64,000 bases of DNA from an uncultured Ruminococcus sp. (GTDB lineage Bacteria > Bacillota > Clostridia > Oscillospirales > Ruminococcaceae): contig CANQJO010000010.1 in the NCBI GenBank assembly GCA_947624255.1, forward strand, positions 1 through 64,000, read 5' to 3'. A model generated the notes under the pieces. It was not told the origin of the DNA and made no database searches. It was given only the letters and a program-made list of their open reading frames with translations. Positions 2,241 to 59,169 of the stretch are shown here, one piece after another; position 1 is the first letter of the stretch; every line of letters begins with the position of its first letter. A program made the translations under genes and the position numbers.

Positions 2241-3927
<1,687 letters not shown>

Positions 3928-21847: not shown

Positions 21848-21894
21848 AAGGCACCTCACTACCGGCAAATGCGTCGGCGGCGAGGAGCCTTTTT
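21848..21894. terminator. Hairpin at the end of the recombinase pseudogene
   Basis: AAGGC and CCTC (21848-21857) pair with GAGG and GCCTT (21882-21891) with an A-A mismatch, followed by T on the plus strand. It shares GAGGAGCCTTTTT with the terminator at 21546-21565, as if both derive from the end of the same element family. Confidence 0.55.
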
Positions 21895-23251
21895 ATGCTT
21901 CGATGTCGATCGTGATCCCGGACTTGAATTCCACGTTGAAGTGGTCGGCGAAGGCGGTGATCTTCTCGATGAGCCTTCTTACAAGCGCCTCATCAAACTC
22001 CGTGATGGTAGTAGGCCGGCTATTTATGAAGTCTTGCAGGTCGTTTATCTGTTTCATCTGTTCGTCCTTTATAACGCTGTCTACTTCGGCTTGGCGGCGC
22101 ATATCACGAAGCCGAAGTATTTCATTAGCCACGGCATCATAATCGTCTTTCTGATTGGCCTTCTTCAAAAGCTCCTTTTGAAGTTCCCGCAGGCGTGCAT
22201 CAATTGCATCAGGCGAAAGGGTATCTCCCTGCAGAACCACAGTGGCTATGTTTGCCTGAAGTGTTTTCAGAAAATCATCTTTTTCACAAAGTACACGATT
22301 TATCGCATCAAGCGTCACCTGCTCTAAGAGTTTTTCATTGACCGTCCGAGCGCGGCAAACGTGTCCCGTGTTTTCCAAGCGGCTGCAGCACCGCCAAACG
22401 ATAGACTTGCAGCCTCGGTTGTTCCAATGAACACGGCGGTAGAATTCACCACATTCTCCGCAGAAAACTATCCGGGCAAAACAATGTTTGCAGGAGTAAC
22501 AATGTCGTTTGCCGTTATCGCTGGTATGAACGACCCGCCTGCGAACAAGTTCCTCCTGCACTAAAAGAAAAATGTCCTTCGGAATTATTGCCTCGTGGTC
22601 GTCCTCGACATAGTATTGCGGAACGGTGCCGTTGTTTTTGATGCGCTTTTTTGTCAGAAAGTCAGTGGTATAGGTCTTTTGAAGGAGAGCGTCACCCATG
22701 TACTTTTCGTTTCGGAGTATTTTGTTTATGGTACTTGTATGCCATTTTGTATTGCCTGCGCCGGTGAGGATTCCGTCTGCTTCAAGACCTGCGGCAATTT
22801 TGTCCATACTTTGTCCTTGCAGGTATTCTCTGTAGATACGCCGAACGATTTCAGCCTGCTCAGGATCAATGACAAGATTGCCTTCCGCGTCTTTGGTGTA
22901 GCCGAGAAAACGATTGTGGTTTACTTGCACTTTGCCTTGCTGGTAACGGTATTGAATACCAAGTTTCACGTTTTGCGAGAGGCTCTGGCTTTCCTGTTGT
23001 GCAAGTGACGCCATGATGGTCAAGAGGACTTCGCCCTTTGAATCCATTGTGTTTATCGCTTCTTTTTCAAAATAAACGGGGATATTCTTATCTTTCAGTT
23101 GTCGTATGTATTTTAGACAATCCAGCGTATTACGGGCAAATCGGCTTATCGATTTGGTGATGATCATGTCGATGTTTCCCGACATACATTCCTCAATCAT
23201 GCGGTTAAACTCGTCACGCTTTTTGGTGTTAGTACCCGATATGCCGTCGTC
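21893..23251 (-). pseudogene. Serine recombinase lacking its catalytic N-terminus
   Basis: The readable frame starts at [16 protein letters not shown] (23251) and runs through [11 protein letters not shown], the recombinase domain, a zinc ribbon (CGECGEFY, later CRAR), a coiled coil and the intact end. The roughly 60-70 residues that normally precede, including the nucleophilic Ser, are absent: a TAG sits directly before the DDG codons and no matching sequence lies upstream. The ATG at 23200 would give a 435-residue product that cannot cut DNA. The family is the common gut-Firmicutes element recombinase, judged from memory of its motifs. Its likely promoter survives at 23548-23576. Confidence 0.85.
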
Positions 23252-24593: not shown

Positions 24594-26525
24594 CTATGAT
24601 TTTGCCAGCTTTATCAAGTATTCCTCTATACTCTGACACCCCTCCTGCCCGATTTTCTGCATGAGTGCATCGTAATGCTCTTTTGTAATGGTCACATTCA
24701 GCTTGACCTTATTTCCACGCAGAGGCATCTTGAATAACTCGTTGATACCGTTCTCTGTGAGAAACGTCATTCGTTCTTCTGAATATATACCTCGGTTGAA
24801 ACAACCACGCTGCTGCAAAAACCATTTTTTCAATTCAAAATATTCTTTCGGCAAATTGATATGACCGTGTTCTTCATAAAACGCTTTTAGTTTCATGCAA
24901 TTCTCCCGCCATTCATTATCCCGTTCTTTTTTTCTGACTTTGCCGCGCATGAGTGAATCATCAATACCGAGCTGTCGGAGCTTTTCTCGCTGATCTTCAT
25001 CGAGCTTACTGTCCTCTGAAAAGTATTCTTTGATCTGGACTTTGAGCCATGCCGAAACATTGGAGATATGCCGCCCTGCAATACGGGACGGAAAGCTCGA
25101 AACCGTGTATTCAGGGTGCTGTTCCAGATATTGCTTTACATCATACCAATGCTTATCCCACAGCATTCTTGCATTGTTTTTCTGTATTTGTTCAGAAGAT
25201 GCGGCAATCTCTGAAAACAGCTTTCCCCTTACCGGACTTAGCTTGTCATCCTCAAATGCTCTGCGATTATGCCGATACCATAAATTGAGCATCGTTCCAG
25301 ATGATGAAACAAGCTCCCTCGGAATAGGTGTATCAGGGTGCGCCTGAATGAATTTTCTGCACTCAACGAAATTATAGAACCACTTTATATCGGAACTATC
25401 CCAAATGATAGACAACTCTTGCAGTCTGCAGTTAAGCTCTGCCGGAAGTGTACCGCTGTTATACCGTGTCCGCGCATTAGTAATCCATTCGCCCAATGGG
25501 AAATCACCGCTGGTGTAGTTTTCAGAAACATTCAAATGATGATAATAGGACGAATACTCTGCTGCACAGGCAAGTCCTGTTTTGTCCTGTTCGGACAAAG
25601 ACTGTGCATTTATAATGTTCCACTTGAAGCCCATACCTTGCAGCTTCTCAAGGATTTCTGACGGAACTCCCTTGCTTCGATAGCGGAATCTAAGGACTTC
25701 CAGCCACTTTCCGAGGGAAAAGCCATCATCGCAGATATGAGCTTCGGGAACATCAATACTCTTGTGTTCGCTGAAATACTGCTCTGTATGAATAAATCCG
25801 TTTCTGTCCTCAAGTTCTGTATGCAGCTTTGACATGACTAAAACACTCGGAGCATCTTTCAGCTTACGCATTACACCGGCTGTTCTCCAATCAAAACCGA
25901 TCTCATCAAGCTTTTTGATCTGCTCCTCGGCAGCCTGATTCCTGTTGCGCCTGTCACGCATCGCCACGCACCATTTGCCGAGATGAAAGCCGTCCTCGCA
26001 GACGAACGAAACGGGCATTTGCAAATCGCCGTATACTCGCAGAAAATCCAATGCATGACGGTATCCGAGGTCAAATGGATTTTCAAGAATAAACATCAGG
26101 TCAGCTTCCATTATCCATGCCAGATACCGCTGTTTCAGTTTACCTGCCTTGTATTTTCTGCGCTGAAACTGCACCCATGCACTCAGATCAATGCCCGTTG
26201 TTTTACCAAAGGTCACGCCCTTTTTGATTTTTCCCTCTTGGTTCTCGTCATAAAAATGCTTTACGTCCATGAGTACATGATAAAACTCATTGTCAAATTT
26301 ATTCCGAAAGTTCTCAATGCCGAAGTCACGGAGAATTGCTCTGCGCTCCTCGGACATAGGGCGGCCTGACCTGCCTAAAAAAGTCATGTACTGCTCTTTT
26401 AGCCAATTCTGCATAGTGATTCCGTTTGAAGTTGTCACATCATACGGAATATCCGAAATCTCGCAGTTATGCTCTTTTATGTAAGCAAAGACATCATCAA
26501 AATTCTGCTGCCAGCGATCACTCAT
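24594..26525 (-). CDS. Helicase-associated (HA) repeat protein without helicase domain
   Basis: 643 residues made of about eight degenerate HA repeats, each a three-helix unit with a W-x-x-x-R pattern (for example GYRHALDFLRVYGDLQMP, then DGFHLGKWCVAMRDRR, then LDEIGFDW at about 155-220). There is no Walker motif. The last 40 residues (VTITKEHYDALMQKIGQEG) look like a ribbon-helix-helix unit. The start ATG overlaps the stop of the upstream small RHH gene (ATGA), so the two are translationally coupled. HA repeats in larger proteins follow Snf2/DEAD-type helicases and are thought to bind nucleic acid. The same architecture with a helicase opens the operon at 54474. Confidence 0.65.
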   Translation of the reverse strand: MSDRWQQNFDDVFAYIKEHNCEISDIPYDVTTSNGITMQNWLKEQYMTFLGRSGRPMSEERRAILRDFGIENFRNKFDNEFYHVLMDVKHFYDENQEGKIKKGVTFGKTTGIDLSAWVQFQRRKYKAGKLKQRYLAWIMEADLMFILENPFDLGYRHALDFLRVYGDLQMPVSFVCEDGFHLGKWCVAMRDRRNRNQAAEEQIKKLDEIGFDWRTAGVMRKLKDAPSVLVMSKLHTELEDRNGFIHTEQYFSEHKSIDVPEAHICDDGFSLGKWLEVLRFRYRSKGVPSEILEKLQGMGFKWNIINAQSLSEQDKTGLACAAEYSSYYHHLNVSENYTSGDFPLGEWITNARTRYNSGTLPAELNCRLQELSIIWDSSDIKWFYNFVECRKFIQAHPDTPIPRELVSSSGTMLNLWYRHNRRAFEDDKLSPVRGKLFSEIAASSEQIQKNNARMLWDKHWYDVKQYLEQHPEYTVSSFPSRIAGRHISNVSAWLKVQIKEYFSEDSKLDEDQREKLRQLGIDDSLMRGKVRKKERDNEWRENCMKLKAFYEEHGHINLPKEYFELKKWFLQQRGCFNRGIYSEERMTFLTENGINELFKMPLRGNKVKLNVTITKEHYDALMQKIGQEGCQSIEEYLIKLAKS

Positions 26526-38354: not shown

Positions 38355-39425
38355 TTAAGCTTGAATAAAGTTAATCCATTGGTCTATGATTCTTTTGGTA
38401 TTCACTTTTTTTTCAATTTGTCTTGCATTTATTCCACAATGATTACGGATTTGACTATTACTCATGAATGAATCTAAGGCCTCTGAAAACTCTTCCATAT
38501 CCCCAACTCTCACTAATATCCCGTTTTCATTATTATGGATTAATTCTCTAGCAGCATATGCCGGAGAATCCGTGGAAATGCAGGAGCAACCACAACACAT
38601 AGCTTCTATTAGCGCATTAGACATCCCCTCGTAATCAGATGCGAGAGCAAATATCTCTGATGTCGATAGAATCTCCAGCGAGTTTTTTGTACTTCCCCTT
38701 AAAAAGCATTTTTCACTTATACCTAACCTCTGAATTAAGACCTGCAGTTCTTTCCTTAGTTCCCCCTCGCCGTATATCTCTAAAATATATTCTGGATACT
38801 TGTCAGACACACTTGCAAACGCATTAATTAATAGTGGCAGATTTTTTTGTGAATTTAGTCTACATATAGATACAATTCTCTTTTTTCTATGTGCATTTAA
38901 ATCCACATTATATAAGTCACTGCTTATAGGGTTATAAATCACTACAGATTTGTTTTGGATTTTTTTTGAGAAACATGATTTTGCGAAATGCGTTTGAAAA
39001 ACAATTCCTTTTGCAAGAGGATAAACAATATTACGAACCAAACGTGTAATTTTACTTTTGGGATCAACTTGAGGATTGTTTCTTTCGGATACAAATATTG
39101 GTATATTTAACCCAATACCAGCAATGATCGTACAGATATTTGTTCTGGTAATAAATGATATAATAATATCAGGTGCTTCTTTTTTGAACATTTTTCTCAT
39201 TTTTTGAATGCTTTTCATCCTACGAGAAATAATATTTGTCCCCCTATTCATTGATAAATCAATGATCTTAATAGCTTTATCTAGGCTATAGGCGCTATCC
39301 TCGCCATTTTCAGTTAACATAATCATCACTTGATGACCTCGCTTAGCAAATTCGTTGCTCAGAACAGAAACAACTCTTTCCGCTCCACCACTCTGTAAAC
39401 CTTGTATTACAAATATAATCTTCAT
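38355..39425 (-). CDS. GT4-family glycosyltransferase
   Basis: 356 residues. N-terminal glycine motif GLQSGGAERVVSVLS (about 9) and C-terminal EGMSNALIEAMCCGCSCIST (about 265), the E-x7-E motif of GT4 retaining transferases. It is a cytosolic or membrane-associated enzyme adding one sugar to the lipid-linked unit; donor and linkage unknown. Between wzy and another GT gene, 13-16 bp apart. Confidence 0.9.
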   Translation of the reverse strand: MKIIFVIQGLQSGGAERVVSVLSNEFAKRGHQVMIMLTENGEDSAYSLDKAIKIIDLSMNRGTNIISRRMKSIQKMRKMFKKEAPDIIISFITRTNICTIIAGIGLNIPIFVSERNNPQVDPKSKITRLVRNIVYPLAKGIVFQTHFAKSCFSKKIQNKSVVIYNPISSDLYNVDLNAHRKKRIVSICRLNSQKNLPLLINAFASVSDKYPEYILEIYGEGELRKELQVLIQRLGISEKCFLRGSTKNSLEILSTSEIFALASDYEGMSNALIEAMCCGCSCISTDSPAYAARELIHNNENGILVRVGDMEEFSEALDSFMSNSQIRNHCGINARQIEKKVNTKRIIDQWINFIQA

Positions 39426-51576: not shown

Positions 51577-54474
51577 TTATCTATGTTCAAAACCGCAGTT
51601 TGCATGACTCTCCATAAAACCGATTTTCATTAGCAATTCTAATCTGTCATTCTTCATACGTCCGGCTTTATATTCCTTCCTTTGATGTACAAGCCACTGT
51701 CCGAGCCGATACCCATCATCGCAAACATAATCTTTGCCGGTTTTCAGACTACCATGCTCCTGATAGTATTTTTCAGCGTGTGCATACCCTCGAAGCCATA
51801 ACTGCTGGATGGGATCCCATATAACGCCGATGACTTCAAGCTGTTCGATTTTCTCCGCACTCAGCTTACCGTTTCGGTAATTCTTACGGACTGTTCCCAG
51901 CCATGTACCAAGATTATATCCGTCAGGGGATACATATTTCTGCGGGACAGCAAGGTCGCCGAATTCCTCAAAGTATGCTTTTGCGTGCATGATTCCATTT
52001 TCCCAGCGTAATTCTTCCGGAGACCAGATCATACCGATAGACTCTAATTTTTCGATTCTGTCATTGCTCAATTTTCCGGTTCTGTATTTTGTGCGCTGAT
52101 TCCGAAGCCATGTATCAAGCTTGAATCCGTCGGCACATTCATAGTGGCGGGGAACAAGCAGATCACCGTGTTTCAGATAATACTCTTGTGCATACTGGAA
52201 ATTCCTATGCCAGAAAGGCTCGTATACTTCCCATTGCAGCCCCAATTTTGTGAGCTTTTTAACTCTGTCTGCGGTCAGTTTGCCTTTCTTCTTCCTGTCA
52301 CGCTGCGACCTGATCCATCGTGTCAGATTAAAACCGTCGATCAGATAGTCCTCCGGCAAGCTGTTAATGTCTCCGCCGCTGGCCACAAACTTTTCAGCAT
52401 AGCGAAAGCTGTCCTCCCACCGGGAATCATCTCGGTTCCAGACCATGCCGATCTTTTCGAGCATTTCTATCTGCTCATCTGACAGGACACCTTTCAGATA
52501 ATGGCTACGCTGTGTCGAGATCCATGTGCCAAGCCTTGTTCCGTCAGGGGCAATGTATTTCACCTTGATGTTCAGATCTCCGTGTTCCTCAAAGTACTCC
52601 TTGGCAAGTCTGTATTTATCAAACCAGTTCCGCATGATCTGGGAATCCCATTTCATGCCGATGTCCTCTAATAGTTTCTTTTTCTTCTCGGACAGCGTTC
52701 CTTCCCGATGCATATTCCGCATCGTTCTGAACCATCGACCAAGCTTCAAGCCGTCCTCTGTAACATATCCGACCTGAATGTCAAGATGTCCGTTTTGTTC
52801 GTAGAAACGCTTCGCCGCTTCATAGAACTGCTCCCATGTGTCAAAGCTCCAGATCATACCCACGGTTTCCAGAAGCTGTATCTTATCAGTCGAAAGTGTG
52901 CCTTCCTTATATTTTTTTCGCTGAAAAACAAGCCATGCTGCAAGATGTGGATCAGCAGTCCTTATGCCTTCAAGAGAACCATTCTGTGCAAAATATGACT
53001 TGCATTTTTGATAGGATTCATTCCAGAAGCGCTCATCGGCAGTCTGCCAGTCCATGCCGATGGCTTCCAATCTGCGGATCCTTGATTCCGATAGAAACTG
53101 CTTTTTACGGTAATTGACACGCTGTACTGCGACCCATTGTCCGACACGATAGCCGTTATCGTTGATATATGCCTGGGGAACGAGCAGATCACCGTTCTCC
53201 TCATAGTAACGCTTGGCTTCGAGATACATCATATCCCACGAAGCGGTCAGTGTTTCTTCCAGCTCATTGAACAGTTCTACGCACTCTCTGACCTCGTCGA
53301 TCACATCGAAATTATCATTGACGATATCATAGTCCCGATCGTATTCCCGGAAATACTGAATCGCAATTTGCATTTCTTCCTTGATCGAGTCAATACTATA
53401 AAGGTTCTCGATGTTATTAACGATATCAAAAATAACAGGAACGGTCGTTTTTGACGCTGACAATGCTCGTCCGATCTGCTGTTTGTAGATGATCGGGGAG
53501 ATCGTCGGGCGGAGCAGTATCACACCTGCGACATTTTCTACGTGTATACCCTCATTCAAAGCGTCAATGCAGAACAGGAGACGCAGATGCGAAGAGTTAT
53601 CCGCGCGGAAATCGTCAAAAGATTTATTGGATAAACTATCTAAGGAATACACGGAATAGATGTGAGGGGATTTATCAATTCTGCTGAACCACTCTTCGAC
53701 TTTCCCCATTGCATCAAGCATAGCATCGTAGTTTGCACAGAAAATGATATACTTGCCTGTGCGGTCAGTCATGTGTTTATCGAAAATCACATCCAGACCG
53801 TCCGCCTTATCTAAAGCTCGTCGCAGGGCTTCCAGATATTTCTCCGCTTTATCCTTGACCGCCTTATTCTGTGCTTTTTTCACCCGCATCTCATACTTGA
53901 CAAGAGAATCCTGATAAGAAAAGATCGACAATACATATTTCGGCGGATTCAGAATGCCGCGAACAATAGCCTCACCGAGTGTCATCTCTGAAGCGATATT
54001 GCCGTCAAACAGTTCATCCGCCATATTGCGCTGGTTGTCGAGATAGCGGATCGCAGTGGCGGATAAGCCAAGGAGACGAGCTTGCGGATATGCTGATAAT
54101 AGTTTCTGCACGCCAGCTCCCCAATACTCTGCACCAGCCCGATGAAACTCATCGAGTACGATGTAATCCGGGGCGATTTCAGCGATCTCCTCATCTGTCA
54201 TATTCATCAAACGGGCATAAGTGAAATACTTCACATTGTTTAATACTGTGTCCGGAGATGCTTCGGACAGATTTTCAAGCTGTGTCCGGAAGATGTAGTC
54301 AGAGGGCGAAAGCCAGCAGACAGAGCTGTTTGGATTATCCTCACACAGCTTAAAGCCGATGAAGGCTTTTCCAGTGCCGGTTGGGTGAACGACAGCGGCT
54401 TTTCCTGTTTTAGCGAGCATTGTGGTAACAGAGCTGTAAGCAAATCGGTTATGCTCAAATAAATTCATCGCCAC
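51577..54474 (-). CDS. DEAD/DEAH helicase with eight HA repeats, first gene of the capsule operon
   Basis: 965 residues from GTG at 54474, with GGGGAGG 8 nt upstream; the ATG at 54552 lies across the inverted-repeat arm and lacks a site. The SF2 helicase core (about 1-400) has HPTGTGKAF (motif I), DEFHRAG (II), GLSATAIR (III) and QQIGRALS (VI). From about 405 to 960 there are eight HA repeats of about 68 residues, each ending in a GM-x-W turn (IGMDW, VGMIW, IGMKW, IGMVW and so on). Such helicases are common in gut Clostridia but no role is known. It lies directly behind the putative switch promoter and is the first product to change if the switch flips. Confidence 0.9.
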   Translation of the reverse strand: MAMNLFEHNRFAYSSVTTMLAKTGKAAVVHPTGTGKAFIGFKLCEDNPNSSVCWLSPSDYIFRTQLENLSEASPDTVLNNVKYFTYARLMNMTDEEIAEIAPDYIVLDEFHRAGAEYWGAGVQKLLSAYPQARLLGLSATAIRYLDNQRNMADELFDGNIASEMTLGEAIVRGILNPPKYVLSIFSYQDSLVKYEMRVKKAQNKAVKDKAEKYLEALRRALDKADGLDVIFDKHMTDRTGKYIIFCANYDAMLDAMGKVEEWFSRIDKSPHIYSVYSLDSLSNKSFDDFRADNSSHLRLLFCIDALNEGIHVENVAGVILLRPTISPIIYKQQIGRALSASKTTVPVIFDIVNNIENLYSIDSIKEEMQIAIQYFREYDRDYDIVNDNFDVIDEVRECVELFNELEETLTASWDMMYLEAKRYYEENGDLLVPQAYINDNGYRVGQWVAVQRVNYRKKQFLSESRIRRLEAIGMDWQTADERFWNESYQKCKSYFAQNGSLEGIRTADPHLAAWLVFQRKKYKEGTLSTDKIQLLETVGMIWSFDTWEQFYEAAKRFYEQNGHLDIQVGYVTEDGLKLGRWFRTMRNMHREGTLSEKKKKLLEDIGMKWDSQIMRNWFDKYRLAKEYFEEHGDLNIKVKYIAPDGTRLGTWISTQRSHYLKGVLSDEQIEMLEKIGMVWNRDDSRWEDSFRYAEKFVASGGDINSLPEDYLIDGFNLTRWIRSQRDRKKKGKLTADRVKKLTKLGLQWEVYEPFWHRNFQYAQEYYLKHGDLLVPRHYECADGFKLDTWLRNQRTKYRTGKLSNDRIEKLESIGMIWSPEELRWENGIMHAKAYFEEFGDLAVPQKYVSPDGYNLGTWLGTVRKNYRNGKLSAEKIEQLEVIGVIWDPIQQLWLRGYAHAEKYYQEHGSLKTGKDYVCDDGYRLGQWLVHQRKEYKAGRMKNDRLELLMKIGFMESHANCGFEHR

Positions 54475-54505
54475 TTTGTTCGCCTCCCCGACTACGATAC
54501 CATCA

Positions 54506-54526
54506 AATTCCTTGTTTTGCGAAAAA
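54506..54526 (-). repeat. Left arm of the 21-bp inverted repeat
   Basis: AATTCCTTGTTTTGC then GAAAAA on the plus strand, identical to the reverse complement of 55942-55962. Both arms also share a CTGCC block four bases further inward (54531-54535 here), so the motif is bipartite. It lies in the leader of the helicase gene. Confidence 0.9.
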
Positions 54527-54597
54527 CACACTGCCAAAAAAAACAGTATCATATGATCCCGACTTCAAAACCGCTTCAAAAGCAGTTATAATTGATA

Positions 54598-54626
54598 TTG
54601 ACAGCTGTGTTTCAAGTAAATATATG
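54598..54626 (+). promoter_or_regulatory. Rightward promoter of the tyrosine recombinase gene
   Basis: TTGACA (54598-54603), 17 bp, TATATG (54621-54626). A second -10-like TATAAT lies at 54753-54758 without a good -35. Confidence 0.5.
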
Positions 54627-54692
54627 GTCGAGCGACGGTTGTAACAAGCTGCAGCAAACAACTCCAAACTTCATATCGCTCATATAAGACAT

Positions 54693-54721
54693 ATTATATC
54701 ATATAATACGCCGTTTGTCAA
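54693..54721 (-). promoter_or_regulatory. Full-consensus leftward promoter inside the inverted repeat
   Basis: On the minus strand TTGACA (54721-54716), 17 bp, TATAAT (54698-54693). The transcript starts near 54686, crosses the left repeat arm and reaches the helicase GTG after about 210 nt. It is the best promoter I found for the whole leftward capsule locus. Confidence 0.85.
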
Positions 54722-54819
54722 TATGTAGCGACAAGCGTTGAGCAACTACCGGTATAATTTCGTCACATTAACGGAGAAATGCAGCTATGTATATTTTATA
54801 TTTGGAGGATATTACAAAG

Positions 54820-55896
54820 ATGATTAAAAACGTTTACAAGAGACAGGACGGACGCTTTGAAGGACGCATCACTTTGGGCTATCAGGACGGAAAACGGAAG
54901 TACAAAGCCTTTTTCGGCGCAGAGGAGAGCGTGGTTGCCGAGAAAATGACGGAGTTTCGGAGAGAAATCAATCCACTGTCCAATGTAAGCCTGACATTCG
55001 GTGCAGCCTTTGATGAGTGGTTTGAGTCCAATTCTATCCGTACCAAAGAGTCCACACAGGCAAATTATCGTCTAAAAGCTCAAAAGCATATACTTCCTGT
55101 ATTTGCCGATGAAAATATTACAGCGATAACACAAAAATTTATCTATCAGTTCATCAAGGACAAGCAGGCAAGCGGTCTGTCAAACCGCTATATCACGGAT
55201 ATTCTGGTTTTGATGAAGTCTGTGTTCAAATATGCTTCCCGTACATACCGTATTTTTAACCCGATGGATGGGCTTGTGATGCCGAAAAAGGAGAAAACGG
55301 AAGTGCTGCTGCTCACACCGGAACAGGAAAAGGAGCTGATGCGGATACTTATGGCAAATCCGACTCTCACAAATGCTGGGATTATTCTCGCAAGAATGAC
55401 TGGACTTCGGATTGGCGAGCTTTGTGCGCTCCAGTGGAAGGACATCGACCTCGAAAAACGGATTCTGACCGTCAGCAAGACGATCCAGCGGATTCAGGTG
55501 AAGGGTGGAAATAAGAAGACAAAGCTCGTGATTACCGAGCCGAAGAGCGAAACTTCTAAGCGCACGATCCCGATTCCGGAGTGCATCATTGATCTGCTTC
55601 GACAGTTTCAGGGAGAAGCAGAGCAGTATCTCCTCTCCGGTACGGAAAAGCCGGTAGAGCCGAGAACGATTCAGTACCGCTTTGCTGCGATTCTGAAAAA
55701 CGGAAATCTGCCGTCAGTGCATTTCCACGCTCTCAGGCACATGTTTGCGACTTCCTGCGTAAAACTCGGATTTGATATTAAAACGCTCTCAGAGATATTA
55801 GGACATAGCGGCGTGGAGATCACGCTGAATCGCTATGTCCATTCTTCTTTTGAGCAGAAAACCGAGTATATGGATCGGCTGAAAGTGGCGATTTGA
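54820..55896 (+). CDS. Tyrosine recombinase inside the candidate invertible segment
   Basis: 358 residues from the ATG at 54820 (GGAGG upstream; the related protein at 56547 begins equivalently). An N-terminal arm-binding-like strand region (NVYKRQDGRFEGRITLGY), a SAM-like core-binding domain (about 60-150) and a catalytic domain with Arg in TGLRIGELCALQW (about 201), the HALRH box (about 308), LGHSGVEIT and the nucleophile Tyr in LNRYVHSS (about 342). All five catalytic positions are present. The gene is divergent from the promoter at 54693-54721, and its stop lies 46 bp before the right repeat arm. It may invert the segment that contains it. Confidence 0.92.
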   Translation: MIKNVYKRQDGRFEGRITLGYQDGKRKYKAFFGAEESVVAEKMTEFRREINPLSNVSLTFGAAFDEWFESNSIRTKESTQANYRLKAQKHILPVFADENITAITQKFIYQFIKDKQASGLSNRYITDILVLMKSVFKYASRTYRIFNPMDGLVMPKKEKTEVLLLTPEQEKELMRILMANPTLTNAGIILARMTGLRIGELCALQWKDIDLEKRILTVSKTIQRIQVKGGNKKTKLVITEPKSETSKRTIPIPECIIDLLRQFQGEAEQYLLSGTEKPVEPRTIQYRFAAILKNGNLPSVHFHALRHMFATSCVKLGFDIKTLSEILGHSGVEITLNRYVHSSFEQKTEYMDRLKVAI

Positions 55897-55941
55897 CGAG
55901 AAAATTGAAGCATCTTGAAAATTGAATATGCTGGCAGGGCA

Positions 55942-55962
55942 TTTTTCGCAAAACAAGGAATT
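55942..55962 (+). repeat. Right arm of the 21-bp inverted repeat
   Basis: TTTTTCGCAAAACAAGG then AATT; the exact inverse of 54506-54526, with GGCAG four bases further inward (55933-55937). It sits between the recombinase stop and a terminator. Confidence 0.9.
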
Positions 55963-55976
55963 CTGTGATAATCCTC

Positions 55977-56004
55977 GCCCTGCCTTTATCAGCAGGGCTT
56001 TTTT
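55977..56004 (+). terminator. Strong terminator just outside the right repeat arm
   Basis: GCCCTGC (55977-55983), 8-nt loop, GCAGGGC (55992-55998), T6. It ends recombinase transcription now and would stop the consensus promoter in the inverted orientation. Confidence 0.92.
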
Positions 56005-56086
56005 GCGTCATATCAACGGCGCTTTCGTCTGATCTCATGCAGCTATAGTATCATATATTACCCTATATTCCGATATATTTCAAGAT

Positions 56087-56132
56087 AAAAAAACACCAGA
56101 TATCAGACCATTTTTCAGCCTGATATCTGGTG
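56087..56132 (-). terminator. Strong leftward terminator insulating the switch
   Basis: Perfect 13-bp stem CACCAGATATCAG (56094-56106) / CTGATATCTGGTG (56120-56132), with T7 on the minus strand (56093-56087). It blocks leftward transcription from entering the invertible segment. Confidence 0.92.
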
Positions 56133-56546
56133 ATAGTAGTAGATATTCTGTTGTGTTCTTTTCTGAGGGAATCTGTGTATCAGCGAGCTGCTTTTTAACG
56201 GAAAACTGCCGTCACCCCTTACACTACTGTTCCGCAGCAAAGCATTACAAGATAAAAAACAGTGGCATAAGATGCGCCATAATCCGCCCAGTTTCGTAGC
56301 TACATACAGACTTAATCTTCGGGCAGTATATAACTTGATAAATCCTCCGATAGGCGGTAACATGGTAGCTGGAAACAGCGTAGTTTAGCGATTTTTACCC
56401 ACAGCCCCTATCCTCAACTACCGCTGTTCAGAACCATACAGCGATCTGATGATAGCTAATGATAGCTCGACCGTGTGTCCATCTAATTTGTTATCGCTGT
56501 AAATCGTTAAAGTGTTCGTGATGCACAAGCACAGGAGGAAATTATC
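56133..56546. other. Spacer before the second tyrosine recombinase
   Basis: No gene seen. It holds a short direct repeat (GATGATAGCTAATGATAGCT, 56451-56470). No consensus promoter for the recombinase was found. Confidence 0.4.
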
Positions 56547-57791
56547 ATGAATGAAAGACTGAACGTATACCAGAGAAAAGACGGACGTTACGAGGGCAGA
56601 CTCTCCCTCGGCTTCACCGAAGGCAAGCGCAGCTACAAGGCATTCTACGGCAAGACCGCTGAGGAGGTCACAGAGAAAATGCTCGAATTCCGCCGTACAG
56701 GTAATGTAAACGGTGTCCCTGCGGCAGCCCTTCCGCTGGCAAATCCTATCGCCAATCCTGCCACCCCTGCGACCCCTACTTCACCGGCACAGGCGGTAGT
56801 TCATAACGGCGAAAACAGCATGACCTTCGGCACTGTCTACGCTGAATGGTTCTATTCCGTCACCTACCGCGTAAAGGAGTCCACCGCAGCCAACTACACA
56901 AATAAGGCAGACAAGCACGTCCTCCCCACATTCCGTGACACCCCTATCTCAGAGATTACCCAGTATTCAATCTACCAGTTTATCAAGTCTCTGCAAGACA
57001 GCGGCTTATCGAACCGCTACATCTGCGATATTCTCGTCCTTGTGCAGTCGGTGTTCAGATACGCAGCCCGGACATACCGCATCTTCAACCCGATGGACGG
57101 ACTCATCAAGCCGAGAACGCCGAAGCCTGAGCTGAATCTCCTGACTCCGGAGGAAGATGCAAAGCTGCTGAAAATCGTTGTTAAAAATCCCGATCTTACG
57201 ATGTTAGGCATTGCATTGGCAAGATTCACCGGGCTTAGAGTTGGTGAGGTCTGCGCCCTCCAGTGGAGCGATATTGATTTTAACAGACAGACACTACGGG
57301 TAAGTAAAACGGTGCAGCATGTGAGAATCACCGAAGGCGGCAGTTGGAGATCCTATAATGAGTGGCTTGCTGGCGCTGATGAGAATCAGAATGCTGTCCG
57401 CAAGACAAAGCTGATCCTGACCGATCCTAAGAGTGAAACTTCCAAGAGAGTGATCCCGATTCCACGCACACTTCTCGACTACATTAAAAAATTCTACACT
57501 GAGGAAACTGACGATGATACCTTTGTACTGTCGGGAACTTCTAAACCTCTCGAACCCCGCACAATGCAGTCGCGCTTTGCAAGGGTGCTGGAGAATGCAA
57601 ATCTGCCCTCGGTGCATTTTCACAGCCTGAGACATTATTTCGCAAGCCTCTGCATTAAGCTCGGATTCGATGTCAAGGCGCTGAGCGAGATCCTCGGGCA
57701 CAGCTCCGTAGAGATCACGCTGAACCGCTATGTGCATACTTCCTTTGATATGAAGGTGGAGTATATGAACAGGCTGAAAATGAAGGGATAA
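56547..57791 (+). CDS. Second tyrosine recombinase, related to the first
   Basis: 414 residues; GGAGG 8 nt before the ATG. It aligns with the protein at 54820-55896 over its length (RLNVYQRKDGRYEGRLSLGF; SGLSNRYICDILVL; RTYRIFNPMDGL). Catalytic residues are Arg in TGLRVGEVCALQW, HSLRH, LGHSSVEIT and Tyr in LNRYVHTS. Two insertions distinguish it: an Ala/Pro/Thr-rich linker (about 55-95) between the N-terminal and core-binding domains, and about 20 residues after TVQHVRI. I see no inverted repeat around it, so its substrate may be the first segment, another site, or an element that has been lost. Confidence 0.92.
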   Translation: MNERLNVYQRKDGRYEGRLSLGFTEGKRSYKAFYGKTAEEVTEKMLEFRRTGNVNGVPAAALPLANPIANPATPATPTSPAQAVVHNGENSMTFGTVYAEWFYSVTYRVKESTAANYTNKADKHVLPTFRDTPISEITQYSIYQFIKSLQDSGLSNRYICDILVLVQSVFRYAARTYRIFNPMDGLIKPRTPKPELNLLTPEEDAKLLKIVVKNPDLTMLGIALARFTGLRVGEVCALQWSDIDFNRQTLRVSKTVQHVRITEGGSWRSYNEWLAGADENQNAVRKTKLILTDPKSETSKRVIPIPRTLLDYIKKFYTEETDDDTFVLSGTSKPLEPRTMQSRFARVLENANLPSVHFHSLRHYFASLCIKLGFDVKALSEILGHSSVEITLNRYVHTSFDMKVEYMNRLKMKG

Positions 57792-57957
57792 TTGACAACT
57801 TGCACACGTTCTCGCCCGCTACAGCTTGACTGCTGCCCCATGTGGTCATTGCACAAGTTCCGCACCTGCTCCGTATCTGTTGCCGATCACGTTTATCGTA
57901 GTCAAGTTGAGATTTAGTATTGAATATTGAAGTGTGGTGGGCAGGATCGTTGAAAGT

Positions 57958-58024
57958 GACGAGTATTGGCACCAAAACAAATCAGCGGCTGTGAGCAATA
58001 ACTCCACAACCGCCAAGACTCGTC
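57958..58024. repeat. Large imperfect hairpin downstream of the second recombinase
   Basis: GACGAGTATTGGC (57958-57970) pairs with GCCAAGACTCGTC (58012-58024) with one mismatch; an overlapping inner pair is GCGGCTGTG (57985-57993) / CACAACCGC (58005-58013). No T-run on either strand. It lies between convergent genes and could be a bidirectional pause site or a recombination site. The rest of 57792-58047 is unremarkable. Confidence 0.5.
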
Positions 58025-58047
58025 AAAACGGAAATTGTCCGTCAGGT

Positions 58048-59169
58048 CTATTCAACATTATAATCACCTAATTGCCTATCGATCCATTCCATCAGCACAT
58101 CGACAATGTAACTCTGTTCATCCTGATCCAGCACCTTTCCGGCAGGGATATGATGCCATTTTTCCAGACAGCTCCGGCAGCAGCAACCGGTAGCGTGCTG
58201 TGCAAGAAAGACGGGATGCCCCTTCATCGGTGTCTGCTTGCCATCGTGGTCGGGATTCTCCGCAGACAGCCGCTTGGCTACAAAGTCTATCGCGTGACGG
58301 CGTATCGTGTCCAAGCCTTTCTCGGCGATATACACCTTATCCTGGTCTGACAGATGGAAACGGCTCCTGAACTCTGATCTGCTCAAACGTTCAAGCAAAA
58401 CTGCTCGATTCGGGAGCTGATACCGGATCGCATCTGCTGAACCTGTGCTGGGAATATAGCTGTATCCGGATCTTCTCGCTTGCTGCATCTGGATCTTCCG
58501 GTCGATGTGATAGACTTTTCCATCCTTCAGAAAAACAGCTCCGGTCTGCTTGAAGGTGAACGGCACGCCATTTCGGATACATTCACGCCGGACCTCCTGG
58601 ATCCAGCGAAAGTCGCAGAGCCTTGCGTTCTCCCCGGACTCACCGCCGCAGGTGACATGCTCGATCTTACCCGATGCAAGGTATTGTTCCATGTGTATTT
58701 CTTCGAGCATCGGCTCACAGATCACCTCACGGTGCTTGATTGGGAGTTCGAGCAAGATCGAGAGCCTGTAGTCGGTTCGGTCCTGATTCTCACAGGTGCT
58801 GCAAATCGTCACATGCTCCCATCCGTCGCCCCAGTCCGGAGGGATACACTGCATGAATCGGTCAATCCGCTTGGTGATGATATGAAATTGCAGATCCTGT
58901 CGCTGCCGGATCATATCCCAGCATTCCTGCCGCCATTCATCCGCAGTATCCAGAAAGAAATCTGATGTCATGCAGGCAAACACGATTCCGTCAGCCGCAG
59001 TCAGTTTATACTCTCCTTGACGGTTCTTTTTCAGCGGAAGAGTAAAGTCGCCGGTCCTGGATACGACCGAAGCATCTTTGCCGATGCTTTCATCACGTCT
59101 GTAAACATAGCAGTTTGCGCACCCCGGACTGATTTTATGGCAGCCGTGCCACGGGTTCCAGATCTGCAT
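58048..59169 (-). CDS. DUF5131-DUF4186 fusion protein
   Basis: 373 residues. The N-terminal part (about 1-240) has WNPWHGCHKISPGCANCY, the Cys pattern of the DUF5131 (phage Gp37/Gp68) family, FACMTSDFFL, FHIITKRIDRF and CGGESGENAR; the family is radical-SAM-like with an unknown reaction. The C-terminal part (about 275-370) fits DUF4186: RRHAIDFVAKRL, HPVFLAQHATGCCC, CLEKWHHIPAG. The two are usually separate genes. GGAGG precedes the ATG. Nothing in the neighbourhood names a substrate. Confidence 0.8.
   Translation of the reverse strand: MQIWNPWHGCHKISPGCANCYVYRRDESIGKDASVVSRTGDFTLPLKKNRQGEYKLTAADGIVFACMTSDFFLDTADEWRQECWDMIRQRQDLQFHIITKRIDRFMQCIPPDWGDGWEHVTICSTCENQDRTDYRLSILLELPIKHREVICEPMLEEIHMEQYLASGKIEHVTCGGESGENARLCDFRWIQEVRRECIRNGVPFTFKQTGAVFLKDGKVYHIDRKIQMQQARRSGYSYIPSTGSADAIRYQLPNRAVLLERLSRSEFRSRFHLSDQDKVYIAEKGLDTIRRHAIDFVAKRLSAENPDHDGKQTPMKGHPVFLAQHATGCCCRSCLEKWHHIPAGKVLDQDEQSYIVDVLMEWIDRQLGDYNVE

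Follow-up and report, generated by a model that had tools for sequence, protein, structure and literature searches.

Whether a 27-kb polysaccharide (capsule) locus of Ruminococcus is switched by a DNA segment that can flip itself is the question raised by the 64-kb stretch of DNA analysed here (the window, meaning the whole stretch). A 1.46-kb segment (54506–55962), in which inverted repeats enclose a promoter and a recombinase gene, lies just upstream of a helicase gene and this locus. The segment is very probably a self-contained invertible promoter cassette that would switch the capsule operon and that lies in the ON orientation in the window. The features of the region are as follows.

54506–54536, no strand assigned: left recombination site, 31 nt, inner half-site TTTTGCGAAA at 54515–54524
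55932–55962, no strand assigned: right recombination site, the inverted copy, inner half-site TTTCGCAAAA at 55944–55953
54693–54721, minus strand: outward promoter TTGACA-N17-TATAAT, 12 of 12 consensus positions, TG before the −10 element, firing left toward the helicase/capsule operon
54820–55896, plus strand: tyrosine recombinase (probable invertase), 358 aa from the ATG at 54820, with GGAGG upstream
55912–55928, plus strand: conserved motif ATCTTGAAAATTGAATA, between the recombinase stop and the right site
55977–55998, plus strand: terminator-like hairpin just outside the right site (pattern match only)
56094–56132, minus strand: terminator-like hairpin of 17 pairs followed by T7, facing left (pattern match only)
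56547–57791, plus strand: second tyrosine recombinase, intact, outside the segment and adjoining the cassette
51577–54468, minus strand: helicase with eight helicase-associated (HA) repeats, first gene of the supposed target operon
24594–51540, minus strand: polysaccharide (capsule) locus on the strand of the helicase, with a 115-aa ORF among its genes and a protein with four HA repeats at its end

The sequence-only reading that first drew attention to the segment had described a perfect 21-bp inverted repeat extended by a shared block. The pair is indeed perfect (AATTCCTTGTTTTGCGAAAAA at 54506–54526, with its copy at 55942–55962), and inclusion of the shared CTGCCA block lengthens the arms (54506–54536 and 55932–55962) to 31 nt at 90% complementarity, the longest among 14 inverted pairs detected in 52500–58500. 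The typical site of related cassettes is a dyad, TTTCGYAAAA and TTTTRCGAAA separated by a spacer of about 8 nt that is identical in both copies (45 pairs); distant family members deviate from this core. In the window sites, the inner half-sites match this core exactly, and the outer ones are degenerate. Exact half-sites occur three times in the window, once in each arm and once as a stray at 38979.

The same reading had reported a full-consensus promoter firing left and an intact tyrosine recombinase gene between the repeats, and both are borne out. The promoter (54721–54693, minus strand) points out of the segment and is the sole 12/12 match within 53900–58100; the window thus has the arrangement of an inverton, a promoter between inverted repeats with a target gene downstream. 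The recombinase ORF is intact and open from 54787 (369 aa, ending at 55896), and ATG 54820 is more likely than 54787 to be its true start because GGAGG precedes it. Its product has a phage-integrase family domain (PF00589) and an N-terminal SAM-like domain, and carries all of the catalytic residues of a tyrosine recombinase (Arg208, Lys253, His314, Arg317, His340, and Tyr350 in the 369-aa numbering). In an alignment of 64 cassette recombinases, each of these residues is conserved in 63 or 64. Among proteins of solved structure, the window recombinase comes closest in sequence to the Int entries 6en0, 6emy, and 6emz, which we take to be Tn1549 Int, a transposon integrase. The window also encodes two large serine recombinases with Resolvase, Recombinase, and zinc-ribbon domains, at 2247–3908 (plus strand) and 21893–23200 (minus strand); the latter looks short at its N-terminus (the profile match begins at position 55). 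The window has no tRNA or Rfam match at gathering score. The named relatives nearest to it are Ruminococcus MAGs.

Enclosure by inverted repeats is a recurrent property of the recombinase family. Each recombinase ORF was given a repeat score, the highest for any ungapped inverted pairing of the 400 nt to its left with the 400 nt to its right, at +1 per match and −2 per mismatch. Related recombinase ORFs numbered 94, of which four lie too near contig ends, and flanking repeats scoring at least 14 were found for 72 of the 90 measurable ones, whereas 270 non-recombinase ORFs of 700–1500 nt from the same loci score at most 13 (0/270 at the threshold). Direct repeats in the recombinase flanks, the second control, reach 14 in 4/90 (18, 18, 15, and 14). 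When loci with a repeated recombinase sequence are dropped, 85 distinct genes (81 measurable) are left, and 64 of the 81 are flanked by repeats scoring at least 14, 17 having no scoring repeat. Loss of the arms where the recombinase is conserved had been named as an outcome that would speak against inversion, and the arms are kept in these 64. By identity to a window recombinase, the qualifying share is 9/11 at 60% or more, 27/30 at 50–59%, 25/34 at 40–49%, and 3/6 below. Wider family and class searches add 45/52 fetched loci (48/55 before removal of three already counted), and 4/55 reach the threshold in the direct-repeat control. In L177, L205, and L215, the long repeats stem from homologous sequence on both sides, and their scores overstate the site alone. 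The arms of L010 (5559–5624 and 6965–7030) are 66 nt and perfect, each with two direct site copies around a small hairpin. Several qualifying cassettes can occur in one genome: among those fetched, five in G005, four in G082, three in G081, and three in the genome of the window. Because the cassettes are mutually related, these counts, like the pair counts below, are not independent.

The promoter is conserved in the outward direction. Among the 64 cassettes scoring at least 14, to which the tallies of promoters, neighbor orientation, 3′ motifs, and catalytic residues are confined, an outward match of 11–12/12 lies between the left arm and the recombinase start in 38, vs. 1.1% of sequences shuffled in two-base blocks. 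An inward promoter of the same strength, as the recombinase itself might use, is not conserved in these cassettes (1/64, vs. 0.9% of shuffles), and the conserved feature is therefore the outward promoter, not a recombinase promoter.

Related loci carry the segment in both orientations. When the flanks of all cassettes were compared with one another in translation, 119 pairs showed some similarity; 17 of these match on both flanks (11 in the same and six in opposite orientation) and the others on a single flank (71 same, 31 opposite). Given the relatedness of the cassettes and the weakness of some flank matches, these tallies are not rates. DNA alignment confirms a reversed segment in six pairs, namely L129/L135, L011/L012, L095/L097, L009/L010, window/L010, and L098/L112. 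In L129/L135, flanks of 92.8% and 85.9% identity surround a 1,389-nt segment that is 92.9% identical and inverted, with breakpoints exactly at the arms, where those of L095/L097 also fall. L011 and L012 are two contigs of one MAG (UBA7013), with identities of 93.8% and 95.8% in the flanks and 94.3% in the inverted segment. The window locus has the same orientation as L009 (helicase flank 92.7%). L010 shares the helicase start (82.7%) and the right flank (70.6%) with the window, but its segment is turned round between them. Both L009 and L010 come from one MAG (RUG10798) and are divergent enough to be paralogous or different-strain loci. Comparison of orientation between related assemblies, proposed earlier as a check, therefore supports the inversion, by comparative genomics of related loci and of two contigs of one MAG rather than by reads. 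The contig end of L131 (1–139) carries an inverted copy of the helicase 5′ region (99.3% over 139 nt), and the inverted repeat of 136 nt, which copies the helicase start, reaches the contig end; this is suggestive only, and is perhaps an assembly trace of both orientations or a duplicated gene. L109 and L110, considered as a further pair of orientations, proved to be variants of about 93% identity in the same orientation.

The left site lies in the 5′ untranslated region of the helicase gene, just upstream of its probable start codon. The helicase ORF is open from 54552 and runs across the left arm, and ATG 54468 is more likely than 54552 to be the start because of GGAGG at 54483–54487 and the start of the homologue in L171. 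With this start, flipping would change transcription and leave the protein unchanged. The capsule locus that follows encodes DegT aminotransferases, a sugar transferase, glycosyltransferases, TupA, a Wzy_C protein, UDP-sugar dehydrogenases, a Wzz/kinase, and CpsB/CapC. Most gaps in the gene run from the helicase to 24594 are shorter than about 50 nt (exceptions 105, 214, and 223 nt). Past 50583, a few weak terminator-like sites and promoter-like matches appear, in numbers that are close to, or no more than about two standard deviations from, those in shuffled sequence. The locus is bracketed by HA-repeat proteins, one with a helicase motor (51577–54468) and one without a detected motor (24594–26525). 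HA helicase relatives are uncommon, with hits in 7/125 genomes of the genus at E ≤ 1e-60. In the genome of the window, L171 (G000 contig C26, 1–175) breaks off inside a cassette, within the end of another such recombinase; downstream come the 3′ motif and a dyad site, then an HA helicase at the head of a second polysaccharide locus. L131 has a similar order of cassette, helicase, small ORF, and DegT.

In the proposed mechanism, the enclosed tyrosine recombinase would recognize the two inverted sites of about 26–31 nt that bound the cassette, and would flip the DNA that they enclose, its own gene and the strong outward promoter included. In the ON orientation seen in the window, a transcript begun at about 54686 would run into the helicase gene and then, by read-through, into the 27-kb capsule locus. 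In the flipped (OFF) orientation, the promoter would face the hairpin at 55977–55998, which would stop its transcript, and the operon would lose the cassette promoter. The OFF state may be leaky because the flipped recombinase gene would read toward the helicase. The left-facing hairpin (56132–56094) could shield the cassette against outside transcription. We infer that the enclosed recombinase is the flipper, that flipping occurs within a population at the window locus, and that the capsule is switched as a result.

Three other explanations bear on this model. The orientation differences could in principle come from independent insertions, and the 11 same-orientation pairs also count against a cassette that inverts. 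The segment would then be a minimal mobile element, a recombinase with its ends, that inserts either way round. In keeping with this, the closest solved relatives of the recombinase are the Int entries, cassettes occupy many unrelated places (up to five in one genome), and helicase relatives without a cassette on the 5′ side exist (L170 and L172). The explanation is nevertheless highly improbable: the same asymmetric spacer at both ends, inverted, is the geometry of inversion and not of excision and integration, the outward promoter is retained across cassettes, and L129/L135, L011/L012, and L095/L097 have the same flanks in both orientations with breakpoints at the arms, which repeated insertion at the exact spot would not readily produce. 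It is distinctly improbable, too, that the recombinase at 56547–57791 drives inversion in place of the enclosed one, or that both act with opposite biases, as the FimB/FimE pair does. The gene is intact and adjoins the cassette, its product is 59–66% identical to the enclosed recombinase in aligned pieces, and such neighboring pairs recur in L090 and L096. However, a related recombinase is among the three nearest ORFs on either side in only 4 of the 64 cassettes (both of the L090 pair counted), which marks the enclosed gene as the general feature. No scoring inverted repeat of its own flanks the gene at 56547–57791 (best score 8, threshold 14).

The segment might also invert and control the helicase only, perhaps in defense or DNA processing, while the capsule genes use promoters of their own. 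We judge this rather unlikely. It draws on weak PADLOC and NCBIfam matches of the helicase motor region to restriction-type proteins, on a cassette elsewhere that adjoins a BREX operon, and on promoter-like matches inside the operon of 10/12 (51079–51051) and 11/12 (40644–40616). Against it, no terminator-like site was found on the minus strand between 54800 and 50583 and the gaps are mostly short, the same helicase type heads the second polysaccharide locus with a cassette end just upstream (L171), and cassettes elsewhere directly abut polysaccharide genes, CpsB/CapC in L035 and divergent, outward-facing sugar transferases on both sides in L205. The operon layout and this repeated association of cassettes with polysaccharide genes thus point to a putative control of the capsule by the self-flipping cassette.

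A further element of the cassettes follows the recombinase gene: the motif ATCTTGAAAAYTGAATA, at 55912–55928 in the window, occurs ahead of the right site in 32/61 measured cassettes vs. 0.08% of shuffles. In the leader of the outward transcript, the motif was found in 0/63 regions at three or fewer mismatches, a set that leaves out L131 and regions too short for the test. The motif resembles the boxA antitermination element of rrn operons. Across 60 genomes of the genus, the 15-nt core of the motif was counted 63 times and the reversed pattern once. The motif was rejected as cassette-specific: across these genomes, the core follows a recombinase of the cassette family closely in only 7 of 32 fetched loci, and most occurrences are therefore elsewhere. 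One of 20 loci scanned with Rfam places it in the 16S–23S spacer of a relative, between tRNAs and the 23S rRNA (L234, 1501–1515), and several genomes have it in repeated leader-like contexts, with shared following sequence in L237, L238, L241, L242, and L246. In the genome of the window, it is found at three places (one with a mismatch), all of them cassettes. ATCTTGAAAAYTGAATA is possibly a boxA-type antitermination element.

The genes beside other cassettes are diverse. In L089 (8225–12893), a cassette lies directly upstream of BREX genes, BrxA and then BrxC, and is a candidate for invertible control of BREX phage defense. Outward-facing neighbors include a HerA-type ATPase (L113), LytTR response regulators (L094 and L095), LRR or dockerin proteins (L108, L127, and, in the genome of the window, L125), SPFH proteins (L087 and, in the genome of the window, L124), a WYL protein (L130), and a glycosyltransferase of family 8 (L025). 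A chosen part of the neighbors was scanned with Pfam, several of them without a match, and six of ten proteins submitted to PADLOC had none. Genes were called crudely, as longest ORFs of at least 110 aa within 1.5 kb, and 46 cassettes had a usable one on both sides: both face out in 18, only the right in 22, only the left in six, and both face in at none. Right-only cassettes thus outnumber left-only ones; if these gene calls hold, the promoter would point away from a lone target in the larger share of assemblies. L215 has two homologous outward genes, of which the one scanned is NTP_transf_5, and, with homologous sequence on both sides, L205, L215, and L177 look like either/or selectors.

It is possible, and we suggest it tentatively, that self-flipping promoter cassettes consisting of recombinase, sites, and promoter have spread across Clostridia as plug-in modules for phase variation. 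Just as tentatively, their targets would be capsule, surface-protein, regulator, and anti-phage (BREX) operons, with an either/or selector where homologous genes lie on both sides. If so, the surface and defense state of each cell would be combinatorial where a genome has several cassettes. Ruminococcus and other Clostridia would then own a modular, self-sufficient phase-variation device that can be detected from sequence alone, as a recombinase with flanking inverted sites and an outward promoter. The model would also predict phase-variable capsules, dockerin-bearing surface proteins, and phage defense in rumen and gut bacteria, and would offer a compact one-gene inversion switch.

The Hin invertible segment, like the cassette, also carries an outward promoter, and the invertible promoters of the Mpi system sit in front of polysaccharide (capsule) operons. 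The latter had been put forward as the known case of such a geometry, but is the wrong analogue: in the part of PMC5903667 that concerns Bacteroides fragilis, Mpi is one serine-type master recombinase acting on at least thirteen scattered regions. The enclosed recombinase is of the tyrosine type, and repeats of their own surround 64 of the 81 measurable distinct recombinases, which is not the plan of one master invertase serving many distant sites. Switches of Clostridioides difficile that depend on RecV are alike in tyrosine recombinase, short inverted repeats, and Clostridia host, but their segments, as listed in the relevant section of PMC5903667, are 154–230 bp and intergenic (except one with a 75-aa ORF), with the recombinase outside. 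Clostridia inverton group 139 and tyrosine invertase group 35 of hCom2 likewise link invertons to nearby tyrosine-type recombinases; by the description in the relevant part of PMC11892184, two examples of group 139 have about 0.2 kb between repeats, too short for a recombinase. Integrases of the Tn916/Tn1549 type provide the nearest solved structures (6en0, 6emy, and 6emz), whereas the window sites are inverted and bound only a promoter and one recombinase gene.

Invertible promoters in general, and a recombinase inside its own segment, are already known. The open-access literature yielded no description of a tyrosine-type, self-enclosed, multi-target family of promoter cassettes, an absence that is weak evidence of novelty. 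Recombinases occasionally lie inside their own invertible segment, and the passage of PMC5903667 on this point gives as example the flagellar switch Hin/hix of Salmonella, with a segment of 966 bp. As far as PMC3798978 describes it in the section concerned, Hin is a serine recombinase that uses an enhancer and Fis, whereas the recombinase here is of the tyrosine type and has different sites; here, moreover, many cassettes adjoin unrelated genes. The window cassette has the layout of Hin, with recombinase and promoter inside the segment, and its recombinase (PF00589, without a resolvase domain) would work like Hin without belonging to that family. Hin is therefore a better analogue than Mpi, and a Hin-like but tyrosine-type, self-enclosed invertible promoter is the best explanation of the segment.
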